DNA from: Acidobacteriota bacterium
Lineage (GTDB): Bacteria; Acidobacteriota; Terriglobia; Versatilivoradales; Versatilivoraceae
Reading direction: 5' to 3'
NCBI GenBank assembly: GCA_028875575.1
Contig: JAPPDF010000098.1
Coordinates: 1 to 44,304 of the forward strand
DNA: 44,304 nt
Shown: positions 8,537 through 30,692 of the stretch, piece after piece
Position numbering within the stretch: position 1 is the stretch's first letter
How the letters are laid out: each line of letters opens with the position of its first letter
Program-made: the position numbers and the translations under genes
The notes under the pieces: model-generated
What the model was told of the DNA's origin: nothing
The model's database searches: none
Seen by the model: only the letters and a program-made list of their open reading frames with translations

Positions 8537-9529
8537 ATGCAACTCCGTCCGCCACAATCGATAGATCCGAATGTTCCGGCGATAATCCCCGAGGAACAGC
8601 AGCAGAATTTCAAGGCGTTCCTCGACAGGGTGCTGGATGACGTTGTGGGTGCGGCTTCACCCGGCATTATCCAGGCGGGTGACGAACTGTGGCTGGCAAT
8701 AGCCACCATTGCAGTGACCTGGGCAGGATTGCAGGTTGCCTTCAGCGGGTCCTTCAATTCCTGGGAGATCGTGAAGCTCATCTTCGTTCTAAGTGTTCCC
8801 AAAACCATGCTGCACTACTACAGCCAGGCTCTTCCTCACACCAACTCTACCTTTCCGCAGATCGTGGTGGAACAGGGGATCTGGCTGCAAAACATGTTTG
8901 TTTCCGACATCGTCTCCGGCATGCACACGGAACTCAACACCCTGTTTACCGCGCAGGGCAACGCTATACTGGCGGCCTGGCAGCGGATCGACTTCGAAGA
9001 CCTGTCACCCTCTACGGCATATGCCGCAGTCACACAGACAGTCCCGTCGATAGCGTTCGTATTTTTCGGCCTGCTCCTGCTGGCCCTGTTCTTCATCACC
9101 TATGCCCAGGTTCTCTGGGGGCACCTGGCCGTATCCATCTCTATCCTGCTCGGCCCCATCTTCATCCCCTGGCTGGTATTCGAGCCAATGGCCTTTCTGT
9201 TCTGGGGTTGGTTTCGGACGGTGCTTGTCTATTCTCTCTACGCTGCAATCGCCGGAGCCATCCTCCGCATATGGGGCGGCGTGGGATTGGGTTACGTCAC
9301 CACGTTGAGTCATTCGCCGCCCCTGGACAACTTTGCCGCGGTCGTTTACTGGTCGCTGATTCTCCTTCCTCTCTGCGCGGCGGGAATCCTGGCGGCCTGC
9401 AAAGTGGGAGAGATGGCTTCGCTACTGATTTCAGGAGCCGGCTTGGCTGGATCCGGCGGTGTTTCCTTGGCTGTCCATACGGCTGGTAAAGCTGCCATGA
9501 GTATATCGAGAGCTGTTTCCAGGCGATGA
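8537..9529 (+). CDS. virB6: VirB6/TrbL-like polytopic T4SS channel protein
   Basis: A 330-residue protein with multiple membrane segments: about 50-70 (LWLAIATIAVTWAGLQVAF), 170-215 (FGLLLLALFFITYAQ, then ISILLGPIFIPWLVF), 218-250 and 265-295. There is a long periplasmic loop in the middle. This is the TrbL/VirB6 layout, the inner-membrane channel component. ATG 8537 is only 12 nt downstream of the repeat element, and no convincing Shine-Dalgarno is visible there. Translation was probably coupled to virB5 before the insertion and may now be weaker. The stop overlaps the virB8 start by 4 nt. Confidence 0.88.
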   Translation: MQLRPPQSIDPNVPAIIPEEQQQNFKAFLDRVLDDVVGAASPGIIQAGDELWLAIATIAVTWAGLQVAFSGSFNSWEIVKLIFVLSVPKTMLHYYSQALPHTNSTFPQIVVEQGIWLQNMFVSDIVSGMHTELNTLFTAQGNAILAAWQRIDFEDLSPSTAYAAVTQTVPSIAFVFFGLLLLALFFITYAQVLWGHLAVSISILLGPIFIPWLVFEPMAFLFWGWFRTVLVYSLYAAIAGAILRIWGGVGLGYVTTLSHSPPLDNFAAVVYWSLILLPLCAAGILAACKVGEMASLLISGAGLAGSGGVSLAVHTAGKAAMSISRAVSRR

Positions 9530-10185
9530 TGTCCACAAAAGACACAGACCGTGAATACGCCGAAATCTGGGGTGAAACCCTCAACTCCAATCGTCACCTC
9601 CGCCTTCTCTCCATGGGGCTTGGCGGACTTACCCTCTTGTTGGCAGTCGTAGTAGTGCGCCTCGGTTTTCAGGAGATGCCCCGCCCGATCGTGGTACGTG
9701 TGGACGAGGTGGGTCGGGCCGAAGCCCTACAATACAAGGCCGTCGAAGCCAAATCCGACCCCCTCGATCCCACCACCAAGTACTTTTTGAATCGCTTCAT
9801 CCACGACCATTACTCTCGTCGGGCCGCCACGGTACAAGAACGCTGGACCCGCAGTCTGCGCTTTCTCACCACCGACTTGGCCAATGCCGCATTCCAGGAC
9901 GAAAACAGGAAAATTGCCCTGGTGGCGGCTCGAGTGGCTCGGGAGGAGACCAAAGTCGAGAACATCGTGTTGCGTATCCATGCCAATCGGTCGCCGCCCC
10001 ATGGAGCGACCGCCGACTTTGAAATGGTGCGCATCCGGCAGGAGAAAGAAGTAGGGCGGGATAAGTGGTCTCTTTCCCTGCAGTTTTCCTATATCACCCG
10101 AATCCCTCCTGATTTGATGGTTCACAATCCGATGGGTATCGTCATCACCTACCTGCAGACGGATCGGGCTCTGGTATCGGAATAA
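9526..10185 (+). CDS. virB8: VirB8/TrbF-like T4SS assembly factor
   Basis: A 219-residue bitopic protein with a short cytoplasmic N-terminus, one membrane helix at about 27-47 (LLSMGLGGLTLLLAVVVVRL) and a periplasmic NTF2-like domain. The C-terminal segment NPMGIVITYLQTDRALV matches the conserved end of VirB8/TrbF domains. VirB8 dimers nucleate T4SS assembly in the inner membrane. ATG 9526 overlaps the virB6 TGA; ATG 9529 is an adjacent alternative. The virB11 gene begins 28 nt downstream. Confidence 0.9.
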   Translation: MMSTKDTDREYAEIWGETLNSNRHLRLLSMGLGGLTLLLAVVVVRLGFQEMPRPIVVRVDEVGRAEALQYKAVEAKSDPLDPTTKYFLNRFIHDHYSRRAATVQERWTRSLRFLTTDLANAAFQDENRKIALVAARVAREETKVENIVLRIHANRSPPHGATADFEMVRIRQEKEVGRDKWSLSLQFSYITRIPPDLMVHNPMGIVITYLQTDRALVSE

Positions 10186-10213
10186 CAACGGATCAACCTG
10201 GGGATGCACCACC

Positions 10214-11188
10214 ATGAGTGCCAGTGGAATCGAGATGCTCAAGCCCTTGTTGCCGGGACTGGAGAGGGTGCTTGAAGATCAACAAGTGAGCGAAATCATG
10301 ATTAACGGGCCGGACAACGTCTGGATCGAGAAGAACGGGAAACTGGATCCCTTGTCAGCGCCGGATCTCGACTCCAAGGCTTTGGGGCGTGCCGCCATCC
10401 ATATTGCTCGCCCCCTGGGCCTGGATCCTGTGCACTCGCCCCTGGTGGATGCCCGTCTGGACGACGGCTCCCGTGTGGCAATCTGCATGCCGCCGGCCAG
10501 TCCGATGGTGGCGATCACGGTAAGACGCTTCGGGGGCCGGTCTTTCTCGACGGACGACTTGGTGCGCCAAGGTGTATTGGCGAAAGAGATCCTGAATGCA
10601 GCCGCAGACACGCTGCGGAAAGGCCAGAACATCCTTGTTTCAGGAGGAACCGGGAGCGGAAAAACGACCCTGCTCAATGCACTGATCGAATTGTTGCCCG
10701 AGACGGAACGCATTATTACCATCGAAGATGTGCTGGAATTGAACATTAAACGCGGCAACTGCCTCCGATTCGAGGCTCGTGGACTCAAGGACACGGTGAC
10801 CATTCGAAACCTGGTGCGACATGCGTTGCGCCACCGTCCGGATCATATCGTCATGGGTGAGGTTCGCGGTGGCGAAGCCGCGGACCTGCTGCAAGCCCTC
10901 AATACCGGCCACGGTGGCTCGTTGACAACTATCCATGCCAATAGCGCTCAAACGGCCTTGGCGAGGCTTGCCAGTTGCGCCGCCCAGGCAAGCAGTCGGC
11001 TTCCCTGGAGCGTGACCTGTCGTAGCATCGTTGACGGCGTGCGCATGGTGGTGCAAATGACGCGGCGGCGCGGCTTGCGGTTTGCGGAAGAGGCACTCTT
11101 TGTAGAGGGTTACGATGCTGCTACCGACTGCTGGGACGTGGAGACCATTTGGAGAGGACAGTCGCTGGCAGTCAGAAATGCGGGCTAG
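10214..11188 (+). CDS. virB11: VirB11-family traffic ATPase
   Basis: A 324-residue protein. Walker A GGTGSGKT is at 144-151, the Walker B/Asp-box region [13 protein letters not shown] at about 214-226, and a His box [12 protein letters not shown] at about 231-242. These are diagnostic for VirB11/TrbB/PulE secretion ATPases. The N-terminal domain contains [15 protein letters not shown], typical of the TrbB subgroup. It is a cytosolic hexamer that switches the T4SS between pilus assembly and transfer. It is the last gene of the operon; no virD4 or relaxase gene follows. Confidence 0.95.
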
Positions 11189-19401: not shown

Positions 19402-20970
19402 TCAAGCCGGGCTCTCCTCATACAGAAACCGCATTCTCCAGGCCGCCAGCATGCAGCCGGACAGCAGGAGGATGAGGAACCCGTAGCCCCACACCCCCTG
19501 GTAGCTTGCCATGGCCCTGATGGCGGTGAAGAGGAAGGCGCTGCCGGCCGCCAGGTTGATGGCCTGGAGGAAAGCAGGTGCACGCAGGGGTCGGGACAGA
19601 AACCTGCGGTCGGCCCAGATGTTGGCGAAGCAGAAGAAGCTGGCCGCGAAGCTGGTGAAGATACCTGCCGGGGTGACGATGTCCAGCAGGTCGAAACCCG
19701 GCTCCACCGCCCCGGTCTGCTGCAGCCAGCGGAGGGTCCAGAGAATGATCAGGGCCGGTAGGAGCGTCCAGCCGTAGGCGGCCGCCCGCAGCAGCCGGTG
19801 GTTGATCCGCCGGCGCAGGGCGGGCAGGCTGTCCAGGTAGGAGGACCAGAGCCGGTAGGCCATCTCCGGTCCGCCCAGCAGAATGCCGAAGAAGGCCAGG
19901 AAGATGGCCAGGTCGTAGAGAGGCTTGAGCCAGCCGGCCAGGCCGGTCAGGAAGGCCGCCTGGTAGCTGACAAGCTCCAGTCCGTCCGGGACCAATCGCT
20001 GCGGCTGCAGGATAAGCGCTCCCATCAGCGTGAAGGCCACCGCGATCAGGACCACGCAGACGAAGCTGGTGACCGTGTCGATCAGTGCCGCCCGGATCCA
20101 GATCCGGCCCGGGTGGTTTCCGCGGGCGGCCACCTCGCGAAGCTGGTCTCCCGCCACGGCCGGCAGGTGGCTGCGCCCCCAGCGTTTTTCCCGCAGGAAG
20201 GCCACGTAGGCGAGGTAGTCCTCGGTGCCCCCGCCGATGACGGCCACGTAGACCAGGACTTCCACCCATTCGGAGCGCTGGCTCAGCTTGGGAACCACCT
20301 GGAAGGCCCACTCGGGGTACTGCAGCGCATGGGGTATCAGGAATCCCTTGAGGGCGGCCAGCCAGTCGGGACGGATGTAGAATACGGCCACGAAGACCGC
20401 CAGCAGCATGATGGCCAGGATGAGGAGCTGGGCCCTTTCCAGAAAGTGGTAGCCGCCCCGCCAGAGGAGGGCGAGGGCCACCAGCACCCAGAGGGTGGCC
20501 CAGAAGCAGTGGTCGGCATACCCCGAGACCTGGGCGCTGTGGGTTCCCAGAATCCCCGACAGCCAGGAGTACCAGAGCGGCAGGCAGAGGACGGCCACCG
20601 CCACGATGGACAGGGGGAGCCAGCCGCGCGGGCCGGGCAGGTGGGTCCAGCGCTGAAAGGGATGGGCGCCGCTGAGGATCATGTGGCGCATGCTGGCATA
20701 GGCCATGCCCCACTTCAGCAGGGCTACCGCCGGGTAGATCCACAGCAGTTGGTAGCCGAAGAGGGCGCCCCCCCGGGAGGGGAAGACGATCTCTCCGCTG
20801 CCCACCGTCACCGAGGCCACGATGGCGCCCGGGCCGAAGAAACGAAACCAGGCCAGGGGGTTGCGCGACCACAGCGCCTCCGGAGGATCGGTGATGCGCG
20901 GCTCTTCCGGGGCTGCTTGACCCGGGGGCGGGCTGGCGCCGGTGGGTGCTTCAGATTCCGGATGAGGCAT
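19402..20970 (-). CDS. Divergent Nramp-like transporter without the DPGN metal motif
   Basis: A 522-residue polytopic protein with roughly 11-12 hydrophobic helices. The first helix region reads FGPGAIVASVTVGSGEIVFPS, matching the Nramp GPG start. The canonical DPGN metal-ligand motif of helix 1 is replaced by TVGSGE, and no MPH motif is seen in the helix-6 region (VAVIGGGTEDYLAYVAF). It therefore belongs to an Nramp-related branch whose substrate may not be Mn or Fe. It starts 40 nt after the SSS symporter stop and probably shares its transcript. The proline-rich N-terminal 30 residues are cytoplasmic-looking. Confidence 0.75.
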   Translation of the reverse strand: MPHPESEAPTGASPPPGQAAPEEPRITDPPEALWSRNPLAWFRFFGPGAIVASVTVGSGEIVFPSRGGALFGYQLLWIYPAVALLKWGMAYASMRHMILSGAHPFQRWTHLPGPRGWLPLSIVAVAVLCLPLWYSWLSGILGTHSAQVSGYADHCFWATLWVLVALALLWRGGYHFLERAQLLILAIMLLAVFVAVFYIRPDWLAALKGFLIPHALQYPEWAFQVVPKLSQRSEWVEVLVYVAVIGGGTEDYLAYVAFLREKRWGRSHLPAVAGDQLREVAARGNHPGRIWIRAALIDTVTSFVCVVLIAVAFTLMGALILQPQRLVPDGLELVSYQAAFLTGLAGWLKPLYDLAIFLAFFGILLGGPEMAYRLWSSYLDSLPALRRRINHRLLRAAAYGWTLLPALIILWTLRWLQQTGAVEPGFDLLDIVTPAGIFTSFAASFFCFANIWADRRFLSRPLRAPAFLQAINLAAGSAFLFTAIRAMASYQGVWGYGFLILLLSGCMLAAWRMRFLYEESPA

Positions 20971-21010: not shown

Positions 21011-22576
21011 TCAAGCCTCTCCCTTCCGGTCCCACAGGGTCAGGCCCCGCAGTGAGGCCCTGGAGGAGGGAGGGGAAGCCAGGCTGATCAGGTAGCCGGG
21101 AATGACCGTGCCCGCGAAGCTGATGAAGGTCAGCCAGAACTTGGAGACCTGCTCGACGGTGGCAGCGGTGTAGATATCCGGCCCACCCGGCAGCAGGAGC
21201 CACTGCCCGTCGATCTTGAACAGCCAGTACTTGGTCACCAGCACCAGTCCGTAGCCCACCAGCGCCCCCAATGAAGCCCCCCAGCCCGTGGCCCGCCGGG
21301 TCGAGGTTCCCAGGACGAACATGCCGACCGCACATCCGAAAAACGGGGCCGCCACCGAAGCCATGGTGCCTACGATGGTGTCCTGGCCGGTCAGGAACTG
21401 CGCCACCACCGCGATCACGACGGCCCAGATCAGCGTCAGGCCACGGGCCAGCCGCAGGCATTGTCTGTCGGGAGCATCGGGCCGAATCAGCCGCTTGTAG
21501 TAGTCTTCCACGCAGACGGTGCTGATGGTGTGGGTTCCCGAATCGATGCTGGACATGGCGGCCGCGAATATGGCCGCCAGGATGAGGCCGGCCAGGCCGC
21601 CGTGCATTTCGTTCAGGACGAAGTGGGGAAAGGCGCGGTCGGCGCTCCCAACCCCCACGGCCAGTTCCGGGTTCAACTGGTGGTGGGCGTAGAGAGCCAG
21701 GCCCAGGCCGTAAATCAGCACGGTGACCGGTATCGACAGGAAGGGCTTGAACCACACCGCCCGCCGGGCGTCTCGCAGCGATCCGCAGGAGAGGTAGCGC
21801 TGCATGCTGACCTGGTCGGTCAGGTTGGCCACGCCGTTGACGGCGCCGGCGGTCACGGCCATCCAGACGGTGATGCGGGTCGCGGGGTCCAGGCTGAAGT
21901 TGAACATCCTCAGCTTGTCGTCGCGGACCATCACGGCCAGCAGTTCAGAGGCCGGATCCTTCCAGAAGATCAGGGCGACGGCTGCGGCCAGGCCCAGGGT
22001 GAAGAGGAAAAACTGCAGGACGTCGGTCCAGATGATGGCCTTCATGCCGCCCACCAGGGTATAGGCGGTGGCCACCGCCGTGGTCAGGACGATGGAGACG
22101 GCGGGCTCGATTCCGGTGAGTTCCTCGATGGCCAGGGAGACGGCCACCACGATGGTGGCCATCCAGGCCAGGCGCGAGATGATGAAGACCGCGCTGGCCA
22201 GGAGCCGGGTGGGAAAGTTGAACCTCCGTTCCAGGTATTCGTAGATGGAGGTCACCTTCAGTCGATAGAAGAAGTCCAGGAACAGATAGACCGCCAGGGG
22301 CACGCACAGAAAGCCGCAGATGCTGAAGAGGAGATACTGCAGGTCATACCCGTAGGCTTCGCCCGGCGTACCCAGGTAGCTGATGGCCGACAGCAGGCTG
22401 GCCAGTTGGGAGATGCCGACCGACACCCAGCCCATGGATCGGCCCGCCAGCAGGAAGTTGGTCGAGCTGGCCTGCTGGCGCGAAAATCCGAAACCGATCG
22501 CCAGCACCAGCAGGGCGTAGGCCACGATCAGCCCGTAGTCCATCCACTGCAGTTGAATCTGGCAGAGCAAAGCCAA
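21011..22576 (-). CDS. SSS-family sodium:solute symporter
   Basis: A 521-residue protein with about 13-14 membrane helices. It starts with TTG at 22576, chosen because GGGAGGT (22584-22590) sits 7 nt upstream on the minus strand. Family features include FLLAGRSMGWVSVGISQLAS near the N-terminus, YTLVGGMKAIIWTDVLQ and MSSIDSGTHTIST. SSS proteins import sugars, organic acids, amino acids or vitamins with sodium. The substrate is not readable. It is the first gene of the minus-strand run with the Nramp-like permease and the P450, and divergent from the dehydrogenase gene. Confidence 0.93.
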   Translation of the reverse strand: MALLCQIQLQWMDYGLIVAYALLVLAIGFGFSRQQASSTNFLLAGRSMGWVSVGISQLASLLSAISYLGTPGEAYGYDLQYLLFSICGFLCVPLAVYLFLDFFYRLKVTSIYEYLERRFNFPTRLLASAVFIISRLAWMATIVVAVSLAIEELTGIEPAVSIVLTTAVATAYTLVGGMKAIIWTDVLQFFLFTLGLAAAVALIFWKDPASELLAVMVRDDKLRMFNFSLDPATRITVWMAVTAGAVNGVANLTDQVSMQRYLSCGSLRDARRAVWFKPFLSIPVTVLIYGLGLALYAHHQLNPELAVGVGSADRAFPHFVLNEMHGGLAGLILAAIFAAAMSSIDSGTHTISTVCVEDYYKRLIRPDAPDRQCLRLARGLTLIWAVVIAVVAQFLTGQDTIVGTMASVAAPFFGCAVGMFVLGTSTRRATGWGASLGALVGYGLVLVTKYWLFKIDGQWLLLPGGPDIYTAATVEQVSKFWLTFISFAGTVIPGYLISLASPPSSRASLRGLTLWDRKGEA

Positions 22577-22677: not shown

Positions 22678-22798
22678 GCAGGGCGATTGGCCGGGTCGCC
22701 GGCAGGTGACCGTTGCCGGGCTTGACGGTCGCCCAGCGGTGCGGTAACTTCGGTCGAATTTTCTTGCAAACCGAGTGACCATTGGGGGGCTTAAATCC

Positions 22799-23755
22799 AT
22801 GAAAGTTGTCCTAGACAGCGAAGCCGACCGCGAGTTCGTCGCGGATCTCAGGAACTCTTTTCCATCAATAGACTTCTGTGAAGCTCCTACCCAGGCCGAT
22901 CAGATCCGGGAGATCCCCGACGCCGAGGTCCTGTTCGGGGCCATCACCCCGGCCGTCTTCGAGGCGGCCGGGAAGTTGCGCTGGTGCCACTTCGTGGGAG
23001 CCGGGTTCGACCCGCTGGTGCGCGGCAATCCCGCCTTCGTGGCCAGCGACGTGGTGCTGACCAACGCGCCCGCCACCCATGCCATCGCCATGGCCGACCA
23101 CGTCATGGCCATGGTTCTGATGCTCGCCCACCGGATGGTGGACATGCTGGACGATCAGCGGGCCCGCCGCTGGGACGTCGACAAGTACCGGGCCCAGATT
23201 ACGGAGCTCGACGGCACCACCATGGGGATTCTGGCCCTGGGCGCCATCGGCCGGGCCGTGGCCGTACGGGCCCGGGCCTTCGGCATGCGGGTCTACGGCG
23301 TGGACGTGAAGCCCATGGAGCCGCCGCCGGGAGTGACCGAGGCCTGGACTCTGGAGGGCCTGGACCGGTTGCTCGAGATCTCCGACTGGTTCGTGGTGAC
23401 GGCCCCCCTCACCGACGGCACGGCAGGACTGCTGGGCCGGGAGCGAATCGGCCGACTCAAGCAGGGCGGCCGCCTGATCGTCATCTCGCGGGGCGGCATC
23501 GTGGACGAGGCGGCGGTGGCGGACGGGCTGAGGTCGGGGAGCATCGCCGGGGCCGGCTTCGACGCCACCAAGCCCGAACCCCCAGCGGACGACAGCCCGC
23601 TCTGGGACATGCCCAACGTGCTGATCTCCCCCCACGTCTCCGGCGACTCCCCCCAGACCTGGGAACGCCGCTACCGGATCTTCAAGGACAACCTGGAGCG
23701 CTACCTCAAGGGGGAGCCCCTGCTGAATATCTGCGACAAGCGGGCCGGGTTCTGA
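22799..23755 (+). CDS. D-isomer-specific 2-hydroxyacid dehydrogenase
   Basis: A 318-residue NAD(P)-dependent oxidoreductase. ATG 22799 is preferred over 22775 because a GGGGGG purine run lies about 9 nt upstream and the usual first strand (MKVVLDSEAD) begins here. The nucleotide-binding loop is GILALGAIG (143-151), with the first glycine of GxGxxG replaced by alanine. The catalytic triad is present: Arg231 (SRGGIVDE), Glu260 (KPEPP) and His279 (SPHVSG). It likely interconverts 2-keto and D-2-hydroxy acids such as glyoxylate or hydroxypyruvate. It lies 88 nt upstream of the second Nramp-like gene. Confidence 0.92.
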   Translation: MKVVLDSEADREFVADLRNSFPSIDFCEAPTQADQIREIPDAEVLFGAITPAVFEAAGKLRWCHFVGAGFDPLVRGNPAFVASDVVLTNAPATHAIAMADHVMAMVLMLAHRMVDMLDDQRARRWDVDKYRAQITELDGTTMGILALGAIGRAVAVRARAFGMRVYGVDVKPMEPPPGVTEAWTLEGLDRLLEISDWFVVTAPLTDGTAGLLGRERIGRLKQGGRLIVISRGGIVDEAAVADGLRSGSIAGAGFDATKPEPPADDSPLWDMPNVLISPHVSGDSPQTWERRYRIFKDNLERYLKGEPLLNICDKRAGF

Positions 23756-23843: not shown

Positions 23844-25727
23844 ATGACCAACGACAGCAACCAGAGACGGGACAACCCTCCGGCCCCGGATAACCCCGGC
23901 GAAGGGGCTGCCTCGGATCCGACCGGATTCGTTCCTCCCCATCCCGGTTCCCGGAAGATGCCGCGCTGGAACCCGGGCGAGCTGATCGACGCTCCCAGGT
24001 TCGTCCGGAAGCACTGGTATGCCTTTCTGGGACCCGGCCTGGTGGCGGGGGCGGGGGCAATCGGCGGCGGCGAGTGGCTGCTGGGTCCGCTGGTGACGGC
24101 CCGCTACGGGGGGGCGCTGCTGTGGCTGGCCACGCTAAGCATCCTGGCCCAGGGGCTCTACAACATCGAGATCAGCCGCTACACCCTCTACACCGGCGAA
24201 CCCATCTTCACCGGCAAATTCCGGACCGCTCCGGGCCCGCGATTCTGGCTGGCCGTATACCTGATTCTGGATTTCGGCTCGGTCTTTCCCTATCTGGCCG
24301 CCACCGCGGCCACCCCGGTCATGATCCTGCTGCTTGGCGGCCAGATGCCCGACCCGGACGCGGTGCCGCTGCACTGGTGGATGCACAAGCTCACCGCCAC
24401 CGGCATCTTCGCTGCCTCGGTGATTCCGCTGATTTTCGGAGGCAAGGTCTACAACTCGCTGAAGGCGGTGATGTCCTTCAAGCTGGTCACGGTGTTCGGC
24501 TTCCTGCTGATTGTGGCGCTGCTCTATTCCAGCCCCTCGACCTGGGTCGACATCGGGAGCGGCTTCTTCAAGTTCGGGACCGTTCCCGTTATGAGCGGCG
24601 AGGACCGCAACGGCAACGGAAGGCTCGACCCCGGCGAGGACTGGGACGGGGACGGCCATCTGGACGTGGTCGAACGACGGCTGGAACCTAGTGTCGACTC
24701 CGACGGCGACGGCCGGCCCGACACCTGGGAACGGGGCCCCCAGGGGCAACTGGTGAAGCACGAGGACCTGGACGGGGATGGATTCCTGGACGGCCCCAAC
24801 GTGGAGAACGTGTTCGTTTCCTGGTTCGGCAAGGGGGTTCTGCCCACCATCGATTTCACCCTGATCGCCTTCATTGCCGCCATGGCCGCCATCGCCGGCA
24901 ACGGCGGGCTGAGCAATACGCCCATCAGCAACTTCACCCGCGACCAGGGATGGGGCATGGGACATCATGTGGGCGCCATTCCCAGCATGGTGGGAGGGCA
25001 AGGAATAACCCTGTCCCACGTGGGGTCCGTCTTCGAGGTGAACCGGCAATCGCTGCCGCGCTGGCAGCGCTGGTACCGGCACGTGGTGCGCGACCAGTGC
25101 GCCATCTGGATTCCCGCCTGCTTCATCGGCCTGGCCCTGCCCAGCATGTTGTCGGTGGAGTTCCTGCGGCGCGGCACCGAGGCCGACCGCTGGAATGCGG
25201 CGGCGCTGACGGCCGAAGGGGTGGGCAGGCAGGCCGCCAACCCTCCCGAAGGCGTGCTGGCATCCATGACGGGGCTCTCGGAGATCCTGGGAGGCACTGC
25301 CTGGGGGAACCTCTTCTGGGCTTCGACCCTCTTTTGCGGGTTTATGGTGCTGGCCCCCACCATGGTGGGACACATCGACGGGGTGGTCCGCCGCTGGCTG
25401 GATACGATCTGGACATCCAGCTCCAGGCTCCGGCAGGTGGATCCGGCCAGGATCGGCAGGATCTACTTCGGGCTGATCATGGGCTACTCCGCTTTGGGCC
25501 TGGCCATGCTCTGGCTGAACGCGCCCACGGCGCTGATCAAGTTCGCCACCATCAGCTACAATTTCGCGCTGGGCATCAGTTGCTGCCATACCCTGATCCT
25601 CAACACGGTCCTGCTTCCACGGGAACTGAGGCCGGGCTGGTTCGTTCGCATCGCCATGGCTCTGGGCGGCCTCTTCTTTTTCCTTCTGGGACTGGCGGCG
25701 ACCTTGCGGGAGCTGGGGCAGATTTGA
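23844..25727 (+). CDS. Nramp-like transporter with inserted EF-hand-like calcium loops
   Basis: A 627-residue protein from ATG 23844; in-frame starts back to 23760 would add a poorly structured tail, and no strong Shine-Dalgarno decides. Membrane helices begin with FLGPGLVAGAGAIGGGEWLLGPL, an Nramp-like helix 1 lacking DPGN. Between two helices, at about residues 253-317, is a hydrophilic block with three calcium-loop motifs: DRNGNGRLDPGE, DSDGDGRPDTWE and DLDGDGFLDG, plus DWDGDGHLD. These resemble thrombospondin-3 or dockerin-type loops and are foreign to Nramp folds. The length exceeds normal Nramp (about 400-450). Transport substrate unknown. Confidence 0.78.
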   Translation: MTNDSNQRRDNPPAPDNPGEGAASDPTGFVPPHPGSRKMPRWNPGELIDAPRFVRKHWYAFLGPGLVAGAGAIGGGEWLLGPLVTARYGGALLWLATLSILAQGLYNIEISRYTLYTGEPIFTGKFRTAPGPRFWLAVYLILDFGSVFPYLAATAATPVMILLLGGQMPDPDAVPLHWWMHKLTATGIFAASVIPLIFGGKVYNSLKAVMSFKLVTVFGFLLIVALLYSSPSTWVDIGSGFFKFGTVPVMSGEDRNGNGRLDPGEDWDGDGHLDVVERRLEPSVDSDGDGRPDTWERGPQGQLVKHEDLDGDGFLDGPNVENVFVSWFGKGVLPTIDFTLIAFIAAMAAIAGNGGLSNTPISNFTRDQGWGMGHHVGAIPSMVGGQGITLSHVGSVFEVNRQSLPRWQRWYRHVVRDQCAIWIPACFIGLALPSMLSVEFLRRGTEADRWNAAALTAEGVGRQAANPPEGVLASMTGLSEILGGTAWGNLFWASTLFCGFMVLAPTMVGHIDGVVRRWLDTIWTSSSRLRQVDPARIGRIYFGLIMGYSALGLAMLWLNAPTALIKFATISYNFALGISCCHTLILNTVLLPRELRPGWFVRIAMALGGLFFFLLGLAATLRELGQI

Positions 25728-28964: not shown

Positions 28965-29726
28965 TTACCCCCGCACGCCGCTCAGGAACTCCCCTATCGA
29001 TTGCTTCAATAGCGACTCCAGGTTGATGCTGATGTAGCGTGCCCCTCGGGCGCGCCACTGGCGGGCCGCCTCGGGGTTGGCGGCCATGATGCCCAGGGAC
29101 ACCGGCGAGTTGCGCAGGCCGGCCAGGATTTCCTGGAGGCACTGCCGCATGCGGGGATGCTCGGGCTGTCCGGCCACCCCCAGCGAATGGGAGAGATCGG
29201 TGCGGCCCACGTTGACCACGTCGACGCCTTCCACCGCCAGAATCCTCGGCAGTTGCCGCACGGCTTCCGCCGTCTCCACGTAGAGGACCACCAGGGTTTC
29301 CCGGTTGGACTGGAGGACGTGATCCCCGAAGGAGAGCCCCTCGCCGTAATCGGCGGCCCTGGACGCAGACAGCCCTCGATTGCCCCTAGGCTGGAACTTG
29401 ACGGCCGCCACCGCCCGTTCGGCTTCTTCGGCCGAGTTGACCTGAGGAACGATGATGCCCTGGGCGCCGGTGTCCAGAAATCTCAGGATGATCGAGGGGG
29501 AATTGGTGGTCACTCGCACGATGGGGGTGATGCCGTTCGACTCGGCGGCCCTCACCATCTCTTCGCAGGTGCGCGGGTCCAGCCGGCCGTGCTCGCTTTC
29601 GAACACCATGAAATCCCACTCGAATCGGGCCAGCATCTCCACCAGGGCGGGGTCGGGGTAGCGCACGAAGCAGCCGTATACGGACTCTCCTCTCTTGAGC
29701 TTGGCTTTGGTATTGTTGGCCCGCAC
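28965..29726 (-). CDS. HpcH/HpaI-family aldolase
   Basis: A 253-residue protein from GTG 29726, chosen because AAGAAGGA lies 7 nt upstream and the frame further up overlaps the SMP-30 gene with no aldolase sequence. Family features: FMVFESEHGRLDP near the N-terminus, RVTTNSPSIILRFLDTGAQGIIVPQVNSAEEAE in the middle, and LYVETAEAV with an acidic metal ligand. Class II pyruvate aldolases of this type cleave 2-keto-4-hydroxy acids, often from sugar-acid or aromatic breakdown. The gene starts 14 nt after the SMP-30 stop, so the two are probably one operon for sugar-lactone or sugar-acid catabolism. Confidence 0.85.
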   Translation of the reverse strand: MRANNTKAKLKRGESVYGCFVRYPDPALVEMLARFEWDFMVFESEHGRLDPRTCEEMVRAAESNGITPIVRVTTNSPSIILRFLDTGAQGIIVPQVNSAEEAERAVAAVKFQPRGNRGLSASRAADYGEGLSFGDHVLQSNRETLVVLYVETAEAVRQLPRILAVEGVDVVNVGRTDLSHSLGVAGQPEHPRMRQCLQEILAGLRNSPVSLGIMAANPEAARQWRARGARYISINLESLLKQSIGEFLSGVRG

Positions 29727-29740
29727 GTCGAGATCCTTCT

Positions 29741-30631
29741 TCAGGGATAGAGCAGCCAGCCTTTGCGCCCGGTTTCGATTCGGTACAGCCGGCCGCAGAC
29801 GGAGGTGAGGTAGAGCGTGCGCAGATCCTGGTCGCCCCAACTGCAGTTGGTGGGCCGCTCGCAGGGGGTCGGATGGCGTTCCAGGACGCGTCCTCGAGCG
29901 TCGAGGACGTAGATCATGCCGCCGGGGCCGCTCCTCTCCCAGCCGGCGGCGGCCACCAGGTTGCCCTCGGCATCCAGACACATGCCGTCGATGCCGCGGT
30001 GGGGGGCAAAATCGCGCAGGACCTCGCAGGGGCCCAGGGCGCCGTCTTCCAGAATGGGATAGGCTCGCAGTTGGCGGTCTCCCTGGAAGTCGCTCTCGGC
30101 CACGTAGAGCCTCCGGAGGTCCGGCGTGACCAGCAGGCCGTTGGGACGGGCGGTGTCATGGGTCATCCGTTGAATGGACCAGCTTCCGTCGCTTCGGGGG
30201 TCCAGTCGGTAGATGGATTTGTGTTCCAGCTCCGGCGGACCGATGGCCTGGGCCCAGTGGCTGCTGTAGTCGGGATCGGAGAACCAGATGCGGCCCTTGA
30301 GGTCGATGGCCAGGTCGTTGGGGCTGTTGAGCCTCCTGCCCTGGAAAGTGTCGGCGACGACCGTCCGGGTCCCGTCCCGGTGGTAACAGGCGATGCACCT
30401 CCCGGCGGCTTCGCAGGCGTAGAGCCGGCCGCGCCTGTCCAGCATCAGGCCGTTGGCCATGCGGGTGTCCCGGCGGTAGATTTCCGTCTTTTGTGTTTGG
30501 TGGGCATAACGCAGGATGCGGTTGTTGGGGAAGTTGCTGAACAGCAGGGCCTCGCCATCCCAGGCGGGTCCCTCCGTTAGCCCGAAGGGTCCCGCAACCT
30601 GCTGGAACTGCCATCTGGAGGGAGATGTCAC
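29741..30631 (-). CDS. SMP-30/gluconolactonase-family protein
   Basis: A 296-residue six-bladed propeller enzyme. GTG 30631 is preferred because GGAGGA (30639-30644) lies 7 nt upstream; ATG 30670 has no visible Shine-Dalgarno. Likely metal ligands of the family are present: Glu20 in LTEGPAW, Asn164 in RPNGLL and Asp215 in GIDGM, with the substrate loop LNSPNDL near 101-107. The family hydrolyses sugar lactones such as gluconolactone with Ca or Zn. There is no signal peptide. It is followed by the aldolase gene, 14 nt away, and preceded by the AGCS symporter gene across a 184-nt hairpin-containing spacer. Confidence 0.9.
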   Translation of the reverse strand: MTSPSRWQFQQVAGPFGLTEGPAWDGEALLFSNFPNNRILRYAHQTQKTEIYRRDTRMANGLMLDRRGRLYACEAAGRCIACYHRDGTRTVVADTFQGRRLNSPNDLAIDLKGRIWFSDPDYSSHWAQAIGPPELEHKSIYRLDPRSDGSWSIQRMTHDTARPNGLLVTPDLRRLYVAESDFQGDRQLRAYPILEDGALGPCEVLRDFAPHRGIDGMCLDAEGNLVAAAGWERSGPGGMIYVLDARGRVLERHPTPCERPTNCSWGDQDLRTLYLTSVCGRLYRIETGRKGWLLYP

Positions 30632-30692
30632 CGGGGTTTCCTCCGAATTGCCACCTTGCACACTGGCCATGGGGAATCGATGTTCATTTCAT

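Follow-up and report, generated by a model that had tools for sequence, protein, structure and literature searches.

The window analysed here, a stretch of 44,304 nucleotides from an Acidobacteriota bacterium, carries on the + strand a gene for a 627-residue transporter of the NRAMP fold (23844..25727), an assignment drawn from the open reading frame, the score against NCBIfam NF037982, a structural model and structure comparison. The frame opens with ATG at 23844, and its stop codon ends at 25727. Against NF037982 (Nramp_1), a family that bears the name divalent metal transporter at NCBIfam, the protein scores 122.6 bits, above the cut-off of 50; Pfam PF01566 gave no match, so that the protein falls below Pfam detection. 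A PDB search with the whole-protein sequence returned no useful match; its output was chiefly noise from ribosomal L4, apart from one weak match in TM1 (10ky, divalent metal cation transporter). PADLOC gave no match. A literature search for Versatilivorator was without result.

Directly upstream lies a gene that Pfam and NCBIfam assign to the D-2-hydroxyacid dehydrogenases (22793..23755, + strand), a possible operon partner of the transporter gene. Elsewhere in the window, a second Nramp-like gene (19402-20970, − strand; PF01566, 45 bits) is flanked by genes for a cytochrome P450 (18088-19320) and a sodium/solute symporter (21011-22576), and its TM1 reads VGSGE, likewise without the Asp of SLC11. 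Further organic-acid genes are found at 28965-30670 (− strand), where those for an HpcH/HpaI aldolase and an SMP-30/gluconolactonase adjoin. At 8537-11188 (+ strand), genes of the TrbL/VirB6-like and the type II/IV secretion ATPase kinds may belong to a type IV secretion cluster.

Fold and topology of the transporter

An AlphaFold2 model of the transporter, built from an alignment of 56 rows (56 of about 79 proteins), has a mean pLDDT of 83. In structure comparison, it reaches a Z of about 27 to 28 with Nramp structures vs about 22 with other APC families, and its first match in Foldseek is YcsG of Bacillus subtilis, with which it shares about 12% identity when the structures are aligned. The description of a 627-residue Nramp-like protein in the first-pass annotation, made from the letters of the DNA, is thus borne out by the NF037982 score and by the Nramp fold of the model.

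The same annotation had noticed a block of calcium loops between the membrane helices and proposed a structure prediction to place it. In the model, the block lies between the equivalents of TM5 and TM6, that is, in the third extracellular loop, and not inside any helix. It is a coil with a pLDDT of about 80, entered by a predicted strand at residues 246-250 (24579..24593, + strand) and left by another at residues 318-322 (24795..24809, + strand), which is followed by a short helix (residues 323-330) before TM6; the full model has no helix inside the block. Since the Z of 28 places the protein in the Nramp fold, and the TM5-TM6 loop of Nramps is on the outer side, the block is expected to be periplasmic. 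The distribution of Lys and Arg agrees with this placing, with 23 among 174 residues in the inner loops and four among 72 in the outer loops minus the insert, the loop limits being set by hand from the model. By this analysis the block should therefore lie in the periplasm, a location that had been offered as a mere possibility and is now supported by homology to Nramp. Folded alone, the block gave a pTM of 0.47, with one of five models above a pLDDT of 54, and a Foldseek search with this block-alone model found no structural match (best E 6.7). This model is poor, and the missing match gives no sign of a new fold.

The calcium loops and their conservation

Four 12-residue loops of calcium-binding type, identified by their sequence and their conservation in relatives, follow one another on the + strand within 24603-24800. 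Loop 1, DRNGNGRLDPGE (residues 254-265, 24603..24638), is abutted by loop 2, DWDGDGHLDVVE (residues 266-277, 24639..24674); loop 3, DSDGDGRPDTWE (residues 285-296, 24696..24731), is variable or missing in relatives, and loop 4, DLDGDGFLDGPN (residues 308-319, 24765..24800), closes the block. Three of them carry an exact DxDxDG (DWDGDG, DSDGDG and DLDGDG) and one a DxNxNG (DRNGNG), and positions 1, 3, 5, 9 and 12 are occupied by Asp, Asn or Glu in every loop. The three to four DxDxDG-type loops that had been read at 24590-24800 are accordingly four. The block as a whole is acidic, with 21 acidic vs seven basic residues among 71, and a search with it in the window's own genome at E 0.1 found no copy outside the 23844-25727 gene.

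Pfam returned only sub-threshold matches of the block to EF-hand, FG-GAP and DUF families. A true EF-hand was considered and rejected, because the EF-hand scores of 18.0 and 17.5 bits are below the gathering values of 25 and 25.4, and because the helix-loop-helix is missing, no helix being seen inside the block either in the full model or when it was folded alone. Pfam dockerin likewise gave no match to the block, and the bacterial TSP3 repeat (PF18884, TSP3_bac) gave none anywhere in the genome at E 0.001. When the profile of the block was compared with solved structures, the Bap surface protein (E 0.0039) and then calbindin (E 0.074) came up, both weak. The loops are nevertheless of a known kind, resembling thrombospondin type 3 (TSP3) repeats. 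With TSP3 and EF-hand-like loops, such as those of Bap (7c7u), they have in common the tandem arrangement, the length of 12 residues, acidic ligands at positions 1, 3, 5, 9 and 12 and the absence of flanking helices; sequence similarity is weak, and whereas the TSP3 and Bap loops are found in secreted proteins, the block sits inside a membrane carrier. In the available text of a study of Planctomycetes from fresh water, TSP3 repeats are mentioned solely for a secreted anchoring protein (PMC6461901).

To place the block among its relatives, a first set was assembled from 60 loci in named public genomes plus matches from the own genome, genus, family and class, giving an alignment of 78 distinct proteins, the window's included and near-copies among them. 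With the strict pattern D.[DN].[DN]G..[DN]..[EDNQ], at least one loop was found in the insert of 55 of the 78 proteins. The inserts hold 164 strict motifs in all, vs 0.395 expected from composition-preserving shuffles of each insert, and the 78 rows have none outside the insert; the loop block is more than chance. One of the six search peptides for this set was taken from the block, so the share of loop-bearing relatives may be inflated. For a second sample, the whole protein was searched against 118 genomes, all from the class to which a Planctomycetota genome (L030) belongs. Nine of them gave close members, two of these being loci already present in the first set; seven of the nine carry loops of the same pattern, and two carry none.

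Column conservation was assessed where the inserts are short (three to five loops), in 31 of the 55 loop-bearing rows; long inserts were examined by pattern. For loops 1, 2 and 4, 12 of 15 ligand columns are invariant vs four of 76 other columns (31 inserts; Fisher p = 2.3e-9), and the three remaining ligand columns are 83 to 96% kept. Shifting the ligand register by 1 to 3 residues changes p to values from 0.004 to 0.79, and thinning to 23 rows under 85% identity leaves the invariant-column count the same. The median entropy is 0 at ligand positions vs 1.3 bits at other loop positions. The conserved oxygen ligands at 1, 3, 5, 9 and 12 are thus present in loops 1, 2 and 4, with loop 3 weaker and less well kept. 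In the pattern check, which includes the long inserts, ligands 1, 3, 9 and 12 of loop 1 are kept in 55/55 loop-bearing rows, and loops 1 and 2 form an exact 12+12 tandem in 52/55, with small spacers in the other three. A rough pattern, DxD...DG, finds the last loop in 53/55, and the two rows that it missed (L054 and L059) show the loop by eye. The number of loops per block ranges from two to eight. From the invariance of the ligands, calcium binding is very probable, and each of the four 12-residue loops is predicted to bind one Ca2+.

The comparison of homologues with and without the insert, which the first-pass annotation had proposed as a check, reveals both kinds; the block is widespread, but its ligands are invariant. 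Neither of the refuting conditions named by that annotation, a common linker with no conserved calcium ligands or a block inside a helix, was thus borne out. A quick tree was built from 75 cores with the insert columns removed (midpoint root, 23 open branches), leaving out four of 79 rows, namely three that are incomplete and one duplicate of the window. On this tree, the presence of the loops changes at least six times, five of these changes being forced by well-supported branches. Six loop-free rows are nested in the loop-bearing clade, in addition to seven rows of no-insert paralogues; the existence of such block-free relatives means that the block is dispensable for the fold. In a related paralogue set (L012, L013 and L088), the same TM5-TM6 site holds an unrelated insert of about 160 aa, to which Pfam gave no match. 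The window's clade consists of seven Acidobacteriota rows nested among Planctomycetes, and this nesting in the quick tree suggests that the transporter gene moved from Planctomycetes to this clade. In two members, L037 and L045, the cores share 97.5% identity (488 columns), yet the blocks measure 90 and 138 residues, and each resembles the blocks of other branches more than the other's; the block has therefore probably been swapped or quickly rebuilt. A 2955-aa open frame in one Planctomycete genome contains the motif GEDRNGNGxLDPGED as well. Judged from these sequences, the block is a widespread, changeable module of a transporter subfamily in Planctomycetes and Acidobacteria and not peculiar to the window gene.

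Ion-site residues and probable cargo

In the transport core, the alignment places the TM1 motif IGGGEW at residues 73-78 (24060..24077, + strand) and the TM6 motif AAIAGNGGLSN at residues 348-358 (24885..24917, + strand). The TM6 signature of SLC11 is AxxM, with a soft-ligand Met. No conserved Met is seen in the TM6 region of the family, where the alignment holds no canonical Nramp, and Met347 is replaced by Leu, Phe or other residues in relatives; we infer the TM6 register, because hhalign of the family against two own-genome paralogues aligned the TM1 region alone. In TM1, Gly74 stands in place of the ion-binding Asp of SLC11 and Glu77 in place of its Asn, both in 56/56 aligned sequences, in a register that rests on alignment with distant paralogues. 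The TM1 signature of SLC11 is DxxN, the signatures of NRMTs are DxxG and TxxA/T, and the Asp is called universal in the available text of PMC8806188. The own-genome paralogues in the alignment are likewise without DPGN in TM1.

Compared with the SLC11/NRAMP and NRMT proteins (PF01566; DraNramp, human NRAMP1 and EleNRMT), the window protein has in common the fold, the places of the TM1 and TM6 motifs and the outer TM5-TM6 loop; it differs in falling below Pfam detection, in having Gly/Glu for Asp/Asn and, as far as the inferred register goes, in having no conserved TM6 Met. The epithet Nramp-like consequently stands as far as the fold and NF037982 are concerned, but the SLC11 metal-binding signature of TM1 is missing, and the term therefore should not be read as metal transporter. 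Judged by its sequence, the core falls outside the canonical metal transporters.

The gene neighbourhood points to another kind of cargo. A 2-hydroxyacid dehydrogenase is encoded near the transporter gene in the window and in seven of 60 loci; of these seven, three are near relatives of the window, and the other four have about 33% identity. In 11 of 60 loci a short-chain dehydrogenase (SDR) gene is near, sometimes directly adjacent. In L037, the order on one strand is transporter, SMP-30/gluconolactonase, 2-hydroxyacid dehydrogenase. About ten or more Nramp-like genes (L109-L119) are present in the own genome, several beside organic-acid or sugar enzymes, as though a family of non-metal carriers had expanded there. 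Among selected neighbours, one to three per paralogue, genes for lactate racemase, malate/L-lactate dehydrogenase, RraA-like protein and HpcH/HpaI aldolase were found, along with unrelated sugar, PQQ and PhyH proteins; no metal genes were evident among those scanned. In Planctomycetes, a large neighbour set recurs, including a MotA/ExbB protein and two proteins without a useful Pfam match; we read it as lineage synteny and not as a functional link. No partner gene is common to all loci.

PxpT of Corynebacterium glutamicum, a proposed organic-acid importer, offers a precedent: its closest relatives in the databases are of the NRAMP family, and, according to the available text, growth on 5-oxoproline requires it (PMC13274462). 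YcsG, the best Foldseek match of the model, is a relative of PxpT and likewise linked to the use of 5-oxoproline. One group, however, reports it to import Mn2+ (available text of PMC10448178). No insert of the present kind is described for either protein in the available text of these two papers. Because the SLC11 ligands are replaced, the neighbours include organic-acid genes and PxpT sets the precedent, the cargo is probably an organic acid, such as a small 2-hydroxy or sugar acid, rather than a transition metal.

Role of the block

We lean towards the view that the block, in the TM5-TM6 loop of an NRAMP-fold secondary transporter, forms a periplasmic cap that binds calcium, with a mainly structural role and an organic acid as the likelier cargo. 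Each 12-residue loop would hold one Ca2+ through the side chains at positions 1, 3, 5, 9 and 12, to which analogy adds the backbone of position 7; like thrombospondin type 3 repeats, the loops would not need the helices that flank a true EF-hand. The bound ions, up to four in the window protein, would neutralise and rigidify an acidic coil that is pinned at its base by the two predicted strands next to TM6, and the stiff, loaded block beside the outer vestibule may stabilise or shield it.

A calcium-controlled gate, by which Ca2+ on the cap would move TM6a and turn transport on or off so that the protein senses external calcium, strikes us as rather unlikely. TM6a is a gating element in LeuT-fold carriers, a short predicted helix joins the block directly to TM6 in the model, and the loop ligands are strictly kept; yet a loop number of two to eight and the loss of the block in nested relatives would be odd for a gate. 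Moreover, sea water is the probable habitat of many members, as marine sites appear in some record titles, and with about 10 mM Ca2+ in sea water, simple loops would remain filled. Because the loop number varies and nested relatives are without loops, a structural role is more probable than gating. Variable length and content, the different blocks on the near-identical cores of L037 and L045, as would be expected of exchangeable modules, and the recurrence of GEDRNGNGxLDPGED in the 2955-aa Planctomycete frame could also fit an adhesive or docking module that, like dockerin, binds a periplasmic or cell-wall partner, for example a binding protein or enzyme that hands over the substrate; with neither a partner gene common to all loci nor a Pfam dockerin match, such a module appears improbable.

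No more credit is due to the idea that the core is a divalent metal transporter at whose mouth the acidic loops concentrate divalent cations, which we hold to be just as improbable as docking. The NRAMP fold, the NCBIfam family name and YcsG as a Mn2+ importer (available text of PMC10448178) speak for it, but the Asp called universal in SLC11 (available text of PMC8806188) is Gly and the Asn is Glu throughout the aligned sequences, TM6 has no conserved Met in an alignment with no canonical Nramp there, and what the scan of neighbours turned up were organic-acid enzymes, among others, with no metal genes evident. That the block is an ordinary acidic spacer, a tolerated outer-loop linker under low constraint with no calcium function, is very improbable: some relatives have no insert at this site and others the unrelated one of about 160 aa, but invariance is concentrated at the ligand positions, as the Fisher test and the entropies given above indicate.

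Going beyond the structural cap, one may picture an NRAMP-fold clade that swapped metals for organic acids and gained an exchangeable, Ca-loaded cap making uptake dependent on external Ca2+; we regard this fuller scenario as unlikely. We know of no report of ligand-controlled gating by a calcium cap in the NRAMP fold. The first-pass annotation knew of no described Nramp with such an insert, and our search of the open-access literature for NRAMP proteins with an EF-hand, a calcium-binding domain, dockerin or a calcium-binding loop found no such protein either. The parts are of known kinds; joined as a conserved feature of a family, they seem to be undescribed.

Both an NRAMP-fold carrier and calcium loops in tandem are well-known parts; here a single protein family, conserved in Planctomycetes and Acidobacteria, joins them. 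Nature also supplies pairs that differ in having or lacking the block, as well as blocks of two to eight loops, and thereby ready controls for relating outer-loop calcium domains to transport. The family also carries a warning, in that the annotation 'Nramp family divalent metal transporter' need not mean a metal cargo, and the operon context offers a lead to what such carriers transport.
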